13,024 nucleotides of DNA, from positions 1 through 13,024 of the forward strand of contig WJIO01000068.1 in the NCBI GenBank assembly GCA_014730235.1, read 5' to 3'. The stretch comes from Candidatus Poribacteria bacterium. GTDB taxonomy: Bacteria > Poribacteria > DTPJ01 > WJIO01. The number at the start of each line of letters is the position of its first letter. Position 1 is the stretch's first letter. This document shows, one piece after another, positions 4,025 to 10,393 of the stretch. The position numbers and the translations under genes were made by a program. The notes under the pieces were generated by a model that worked only from the letters and a program-made list of their open reading frames with translations, was not told the DNA's origin and made no database searches.

Positions 4025-5056
4025 TTACTGATTATCTATTTCAACATTTTGTTGTATAATGACTACATTATCAGGGTGAAATTCATTCCATGCGGCTTTA
4101 AAAGAAACTATACCAGCTTTATGTTTGAGGGCTTTTCCTTTTAACAAACCTTTGACGGAAATCCCCGTATTTCGATCCCATATAGATTCGGTCTCTTTGT
4201 CCTTCATTAACTTTTCACTAATAACTACAAATTGCAAAATCTTATCGTCCAATCGTCGAGAAAACATATTAACAGCAGTGCTTTCAGGATCAAATGTTAT
4301 AAGAAGCGGCCAGTTAACCTGATTTATGTTAAGTATAGGGTTATCCAATAAAAACTGGAATGACACTGAATAGGCATTTCCTGATGAAATCCATCCATAT
4401 ACAAAATCCTCCGGGTGCTTATAGAAATTTTTTGTATAATCATCAGTAGTCCTTCTCATATTTAATACTGTTGTTTCGGGGTGCTGATTTTTCCACGCTC
4501 CCCATGTGACCACTTTTGCCGGTATCAATTCAAGCTCAGTACCCTTAAGCTGACCTCTCATAGCTCTACCAAGTATATGGCTCCATAGGGATTTGGTCTC
4601 CTGATCTTGCATAACCAGACTACGGTTCCAAAGCATACCGGAAACACTGAAATTTAAAACCTGTCCATTTACTGCTGAAGCATAAACTATGCCGTTGTGA
4701 CATAGGTGTCACCAAGTTGCAGCTATGGCTACACCGGCGAGATTGTCGTTTATGATCTCGCGACTTGGCCCTGTAAGCATGTTTATGGGATAAGCTCGAG
4801 ATTGACCATCTATAGATACGCCTAAAACCAACTCATTATCATTTACCTGATCCTCTACCTGAGATGCAGTAATCAGGGGAGGCTCAGTAATGGCAGGATA
4901 TGGTGGAACTACCTGTATAGGATTGAATACTAAACCCTCTGCTTCTTCTATTTCTTTTTCTTCAACCATATCATTTTCTGACTGATTTAAGTTTATACAA
5001 CTAACTATGAATAATCCAGCGATAATAAATAAAAAAATCCAGCTTTTTTTGATCAT
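4025..5056 (-). CDS. DUF3179 lipoprotein, predicted selenoprotein (in-frame TGA = Sec116)
   Basis: One reading frame runs from the ATG at 5056 to the TAA at 4025, interrupted only by TGA at 4709-4711. Decoded as selenocysteine, it gives 343 residues. Residues 1-20 are a lipoprotein signal (hydrophobic 6-18, lipobox IVSC, lipidated Cys20), followed by an acidic linker. From about 75 the DUF3179 domain is clear: ELVLGVSIDG..RAYPINMLTGPSREIIND, then AATW-U-HLCHNGIVY. DUF3179 proteins normally read (Y/W)CxLC here, so the TGA replaces the first Cys of the CxxC. The frame continues with the family's next block (VSGMLWNRSLVMQDQET..SLW, 134-158). The C-terminal half (about 250-334) repeats the layout of residues 110-200 but lacks the redox motif. 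A good RBS (AGGAG, 8 nt spacing) precedes the ATG. A redox role outside the cytoplasm is inferred from UxxC; no substrate can be named. A nonsense mutation is the alternative, but the exact Cys position argues against it. Confidence 0.85.
4660..4711 (-). promoter_or_regulatory. Candidate bacterial SECIS element at the Sec codon
   Basis: In the mRNA, 21 nt after the TGA, GCATA pairs with TATGC around a 3-nt loop GTT (4680-4692). A G at the start of a small apical loop, 16-37 nt from the UGA, is the usual bacterial SECIS layout recognised by SelB. Two further A-T pairs across a CG bulge can extend the stem, and a lower stem CCT(AT)GTC/GACAGG (4699-4706 with 4660-4665) is possible. Competing hairpins exist: GTGACA-CCTA-TGTCAC spanning the TGA itself (4697-4712), and CTATGTC/GGCATAG (4687-4705). 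The exact fold is therefore not settled. Confidence 0.5.
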
Positions 5057-5144
5057 TCTTATACTCCTGTAGTAGATTTAGGGTAATATAAATGCTGTCA
5101 ATAATTTCAACAGCAGAAAGCTGGATTATAATTCCCGTTATATT

Positions 5145-9475: not shown

Positions 9476-10393
9476 ATGAGTAAAATAGACGAACTGAAAT
9501 TCCTTGCATTAAAGCTTAAAATGGATAATATCCTTATTAAAATGGAGGATGTTGCCCTTAAAATTGAGGACAAAGGTGATCTTGTAAATACATTTCCTGT
9601 ACCCAATTGCGAGACGTGCACAGAAAAATGCTGTCCGCCCAGGGTTATGATATCCCTCTTTGATCTGGCTAATTTTATTGATAGGGGATTTGATGATTAT
9701 GTGGCCGGTATGTTTAAAGGATATGTGGAACTTTATCTTTCTGACGAAGATGAAAAAATTGATATATCCCGTCCTCACATGTTTCCCCCTGATCCTGATG
9801 CAAAGGAATGCGTTTTTATGGATGAAAACCAGCGATGTAGCATATATGAATACCGACCCCAGATATGCCGTTCTTTCCCACTGGCTGTAAGGATAGATGA
9901 AGATAAGACAAGAATAGCCATATGGATGGGGGGATGCAAAAACTACGAAATATCTTCAGACAAATATAAATTTATAAACCTTCTGGAAAACGCCATACAG
10001 GATTACAATGAAAAGGTGACATCCAATGCCCTGATGATGAATAAAAGAACAGAACTGCGGGAATTTGGATATGGTAAGTATATGGAAGATGAGCTTATCC
10101 TATTGAGAGATTATAAGAATAAAATCAAAGATTTACAGACAGAAACCGATGACCTTAAAAGAGTTGTAGAACGCCTGAGAGAACCACAGGATCAGGTGGC
10201 TATGGTGCAAAACTATCAGGAGGATAACCAGTGGCTAAAAGAGCGTCTGGTAAATATGGAAAAGGAACTATCTCAGCAGCGGGAAAACGCCCACAAAATT
10301 ATCTCTGAACTTACTGAGCAGCTTTCAGAGCAAAGGAAGCTTATAGAGAAAATTAATCAGGAACAGTATAAAAAAAGCCGCTGGCTCAGGTGA
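9476..10393 (+). CDS. YkgJ-family cysteine-cluster protein with C-terminal coiled coil
   Basis: The 305-residue protein has the cysteine pattern of the putative zinc/iron-chelating YkgJ domain. It runs C45-x2-C48-x3-C52-C53, followed by CVFMD (Cys112), RCSIYEYRPQICRSFP (Cys121 and Cys131) and a last Cys154 (GGCKNY). The family is thought to bind metal, possibly an Fe-S or zinc site; its biochemical role is not established. After about residue 200 the sequence becomes heptad-rich and highly charged (about 205-300, e.g. LKRVVERLREP and ELSQQRENAHKIISELTEQL), a long coiled coil that is not part of the usual YkgJ domain. It lacks a signal sequence, so it is probably cytoplasmic. No clear RBS precedes the ATG. 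It starts 29 nt after the LamG gene and is followed 7 nt later by lpxK. It ends in TGA, read here as a normal stop. Confidence 0.82.
   Translation: MSKIDELKFLALKLKMDNILIKMEDVALKIEDKGDLVNTFPVPNCETCTEKCCPPRVMISLFDLANFIDRGFDDYVAGMFKGYVELYLSDEDEKIDISRPHMFPPDPDAKECVFMDENQRCSIYEYRPQICRSFPLAVRIDEDKTRIAIWMGGCKNYEISSDKYKFINLLENAIQDYNEKVTSNALMMNKRTELREFGYGKYMEDELILLRDYKNKIKDLQTETDDLKRVVERLREPQDQVAMVQNYQEDNQWLKERLVNMEKELSQQRENAHKIISELTEQLSEQRKLIEKINQEQYKKSRWLR

Follow-up and report, generated by a model that had tools for sequence, protein, structure and literature searches.

The DUF3179 domain-containing protein is already listed as a selenoprotein family, with the motif 'UxxC/T', in two reviews that credit Zhang & Gladyshev 2007 (PMC9312934, PMC13188914). 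Each review gives the family a single table row, which carries no phylum distribution, and the main text of one of the two, the 2026 review, makes no mention of Chloroflexota, Planctomycetota, Verrucomicrobiota or Poribacteria. A preliminary description of the locus studied here had suggested that selenocysteine (Sec) forms of DUF3179 might already be labelled as such, and these two reviews bear it out. The locus lies in a window of 13,024 nucleotides (contig C432) from a Candidatus Poribacteria MAG, and its product belongs to the same Pfam family as the listed selenoprotein (PF11376) and has the same UxxC motif. It goes beyond the listed protein in its placement in a subfamily with the motif TWUHLC[HF]NG and in a covarying SECIS. 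The DUF3179 selenoprotein itself is thus already known, and its spread and covarying SECIS, as reported here, are modest additions.

The minus strand from 5056 to 4025 reads as 344 codons in a single frame, in which the only stops are a TGA at codon 116 and the TAA at codon 344 (Table 1). Re-reading confirmed the earlier proposal that two apparent fragments (5056-4709 and 4636-4025) share one frame with the 24 codons that lie between them. The read-through protein matches PF11376 at 196 bits (E=1.2e-57), membership being defined as a score above the Pfam gathering cut-off of 27 bits; the match covers residues 54-213 with the TGA inside it, in the motif ATWUHLCHNG. From the base composition, the chance of a 227-codon open frame downstream of the TGA is about 2e-7. 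Identity to the nearest relatives is 55-63% upstream of the TGA and 43-50% downstream, and since it is still high downstream, the downstream half is under protein-level selection. A lipobox is likewise visible by eye in relatives (for example L027, L028 and L033). The protein would be exported and lipid-anchored through Cys20.

Table 1. Features of the DUF3179 locus, in window coordinates
Feature	Position	Strand	Basis
Complete predicted DUF3179 selenoprotein gene, 343 codons + TAA	4025..5056	minus	Frame analysis, PF11376 match
In-frame TGA, predicted Sec116, first position of U-H-L-C	4709..4711	minus	Same codon TGA in 79/110 homologues
Cys119, second position of UxxC	4700..4702	minus	Sequence, homologue alignment
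AGGAG, RBS-like, 7 nt upstream of ATG	5064..5068	minus	Sequence
Signal peptide with lipobox I-V-S-C20 (putative lipoprotein)	4997..5056	minus	Read by eye
N-terminal DUF3179 domain with UxxC, residues 46-207	4436..4921	minus	AlphaFold2 pLDDT 92.9; Rieske-like fold Z 8.3
C-terminal half, residues 218-330, degenerate copy of the N domain that lacks the Cys/Sec pair	4067..4405	minus	Rieske-like fold Z 8.7
SECIS-type hairpin GGCATA-GTT-TATGCT	4679..4693	minus	Family conservation; apical loop 21 nt past UGA, G first in loop

Alignment with homologues, as the preliminary description had advised, finds that members of different phyla have TGA at this codon. We assembled 110 DUF3179 loci spanning at least eight bacterial phyla and archaea, 80 of which came from a scan of named genomes; a contig scan with a single protein as query gave no matches, and an alignment-based scan succeeded. 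At window codon 116, 79 loci have TGA and 31 a Cys codon (TGC/TGT), so the TGA does stand, as had been claimed, at the first Cys of the family's CxxC, where all 31 non-TGA homologues have Cys. The TGA forms occur in Poribacteria, Planctomycetota, Verrucomicrobiota, Chloroflexota, Acidobacteriota, Nitrospinota, Bacillota and Marinimicrobia, and the Cys forms in Nitrosopumilaceae, Rokuibacteriota, Acidobacteriota and some Poribacteria. By our count, a full-length DUF3179 match holding exactly one in-frame TGA occurs in 67 of the 84 Poribacteria genomes, and six single-contig genomes (G010, G019, G035, G037, G045 and G047) have both a one-TGA DUF3179 and a tRNA-Sec. The TGA always lay within TWU..C in the relatives read in detail (28/28), and the Cys119 position is nearly invariant among the homologues. 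Exceptions are a Bacillota MAG, in which the second Cys is replaced by Ala (L115, UPLA), and an Acidobacteria MAG, in which it is replaced by Thr (L130, CPLT); these variants imply that a second Cys is not an absolute requirement. The Cys forms resemble the Sec forms in domain and in the position of the CxxC, but differ from them in having a Cys codon and almost never the hairpin described below. They differ also in the residue that precedes Sec or Cys (window codon 115, 4712-4714), which is Trp in 79/79 TGA forms and Tyr or Phe in 27/31 Cys forms.

On a tree of the homologues in which the Sec column was masked, five label changes are required; its rooting is arbitrary, so that it does not fix the direction of Sec/Cys exchange. 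The window protein groups with sequences from Planctomycetota, Verrucomicrobiota and a few Poribacteria in an all-Sec clade of 15 rows (100/100), apart from the copies with KIATTWUPLC that other Poribacteria have. It is a member of the TWUHLC[HF]NG subfamily found in Planctomycetota, Verrucomicrobiota and some Poribacteria, and there may have been horizontal transfer. The phylum name agrees with that of named relatives: L056, labelled Candidatus Poribacteria, has a protein that is identical in the tree to the one from G055, a genome of the host's phylum.

A bSECIS was taken to be a hairpin 16-37 nt past the UGA with a G within the first two loop positions, and the family has such an element; in the window the hairpin is present, though by itself non-significant (z -0.58). 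When the best hairpin of each sequence is considered, the apical loop lies 19-21 nt past the codon in 74 of the 79 TGA forms as against 2 of the 31 Cys forms, the loop in TGA forms being usually CGUGU or GUN. Relative to synonymously randomised sequences, the TGA forms have a mean z of -1.97 and the Cys forms one of -0.52. Among 36 non-redundant TGA forms, nt22 and nt30 (counting from the U of UGA) are A-T in 27, G-C in 8 and another combination in 1, whereas only 26% of Cys forms pair at these positions. Because nt30 falls on the third base of a Tyr codon, a change there is silent. Residue +7 and the Tyr codon at +9 covary, Ile occurring with TAT in 65/65 cases and Val with TAC in 10/10. For independent sequences, which these are not, the chance of such a split would be about 1e-12; the Ile-TAT and Val-TAC states are intermixed inside the window's own clade. 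Two properties of the window RNA count against the Sec reading: its hairpin, at -4.2 kcal/mol, is weak and does not stand out from synonymous controls (p 0.3), and the free 40-nt RNA favours another hairpin (-8.6) involving nt 7-13, counted from the UGA. A ribosome paused at the UGA would cover these nucleotides. An Rfam search of the window returned no match.

A search of the host genome for selA, selB, selC and selD had also been advised, and in this MAG (5.5 Mb, 91.6% complete, 4.8% contamination) tRNA-Sec, SelA, SelB and SelD were all found. The tRNA-Sec scores 79.1 bits and has a UCA anticodon, its anticodon loop reading CUUCAAA, and the matches to SelB and SelA reach 366.6 and 530.2 bits. 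SelD (C226:2151-3077, L021; 394 bits) has an in-frame TGA of its own, in THGAGUACK, and thus looks Sec-containing from its sequence, an independent sign of Sec use in the genome. That the sel genes lie on contigs other than the window's, in a MAG with this level of contamination, counts against the Sec reading; in 54 of 58 related genomes a match to tRNA-Sec exceeds the family cut-off. The host has two SelA-like genes above the family cut-off (C246:1704-2852, L018, and C64:7849-9198, L019), both with FSGDK(L/F)LGGPQ, and the more divergent one, L019, is either a paralogue or on a mis-binned contig.

The AlphaFold2 models are mainly beta, with a pLDDT of 87.6 for the full protein and 92.9 for the N domain alone, and the N- and C-terminal halves match each other by BLASTP (E=1e-9). 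In fold comparisons of both halves the top 50 rows were all Rieske-type, the best at Z 8.7 (91 residues) for the C-terminal half and Z 8.3 (91-92 residues) for the N domain, where Z of about 8 is near a level that the comparison tool rates as middling and its warning describes Z 7-8 as common. The likeness to Rieske ferredoxins is one of fold only, with some 91-98 residues superposing at 2.6-3.5 A (Z ~8), whereas DUF3179 lacks both the Fe-S ligand motif and sequence-profile support and has its UxxC elsewhere on the fold. Indeed, the Rieske ligands C-x-H...C-x-x-H are absent from the window protein, which has no PF00355 match; Foldseek E-values exceeded 0.01, an hhalign comparison of profiles, made with 14 Rieske proteins from Poribacteria, was negative, and a sequence search against solved structures gave no match. 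We also considered, and dropped, an equation of UxxC with the second Rieske ligand motif (C-P-x-H), which misfits both the model (38-140 on Rieske 2-96) and a weak hhalign register. As a lead only, then, the tandem domain model resembles a Rieske fold without iron-sulphur ligands. It may even be that DUF3179 consists of tandem Rieske folds whose [2Fe-2S] site was lost and which have instead a Sec/Cys redox pair at a new position on the fold, a former cluster-bearing electron carrier turned envelope selenol/thiol enzyme, but this is speculative and we think it improbable.

On these sequence data, the window gene is almost certainly an intact DUF3179 selenoprotein gene, with UGA116 read as selenocysteine. 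A nonsense mutation or a miscall in a Cys-type DUF3179 gene would be compatible with the fact that the locus is known from a single MAG contig and that a gene caller takes the TGA as a stop. Yet tens of independent assemblies, among them single-contig genomes and members of several phyla, have TGA at this codon, and protein constraint persists past it. As the TGA is common to homologues across phyla, sequencing error is excluded, and the TGA at the redox-Cys codon, the Sec machinery of the host and the hairpin of the TGA forms point to a genuine selenoprotein, leaving a pseudogene scarcely credible; the original preference for Sec over a nonsense mutation therefore stands. We consider it just as implausible that TGA has been reassigned to a standard amino acid throughout the host genome. 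In-frame TGA does occur in two of the genes read, DUF3179 and SelD, but both codons are at known or listed Sec positions, the genome has a dedicated tRNA-Sec and SelB, and the hairpin is confined to TGA forms, in the proportions given above. TGA moreover still terminates normal window genes, such as the ORF ending at 10393, in keeping with the initial view that a recoded genome was unlikely. Barely less remote is a UGA whose main task is to let selenium decide whether a short lipoprotein of 115 residues or the full protein is made: the window hairpin is indeed weaker than in most relatives, but the truncated form would stop within the predicted fold, right before the reactive pair, and we saw no sign of separate selection on a short form.

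If UGA116 is read as Sec, this would be done by SelB and tRNA-Sec(UCA), with the short hairpin that starts about 15 nt 3' of the UGA directing insertion. Sec116 and Cys119 could then be partners in a selenenylsulphide/dithiol-type pair whose targets in the cell envelope would be thiols, disulphides or peroxide; because of the general chemistry of Sec/Cys exchange, such a redox role seems reasonably probable. A rival to this role, although not to Sec insertion, is that the two residues are metal or cofactor ligands. The resemblance of the predicted domain to the Rieske fold, a metal-cluster fold, lends this some appeal, but Cys20, Sec116 and Cys119 are the only Cys or Sec residues in the window protein and no C-x-H...C-x-x-H set is possible. 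The aligned ranges also put UxxC away from the Rieske ligand loops, and the profile comparison with Rieske proteins is unsupportive, so we regard ligation as unlikely, if still worth keeping in view.

What is added here to the listed family is, as far as sequence can tell, the near-fixation of its Sec form in Poribacteria, together with a large spread in Chloroflexota, Planctomycetota and Verrucomicrobiota, the TWUHLC[HF]NG subfamily and the tandem domain model. A mechanical gene call cuts DUF3179 at the UGA, leaving the gene liable to misreading as two fragments, and this risk extends to most Poribacteria and to many Chloroflexota and Planctomycetota genomes. That the Sec form has been kept across many lineages suggests that residues 116 and 119 are the likely reactive site of a family whose function is unknown, which makes that function directly testable. 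In a comparison of neighbours across phyla no gene was recurrently beside DUF3179, and recurrent neighbour clusters were dropped as a functional clue because they looked lineage-specific or like frame artefacts. Four of the Poribacteria DUF3179 proteins with the Sec motif (L031, L032, L046 and L052) carry an insertion of collagen-like GxDGADGQ repeats within their C-terminal half.
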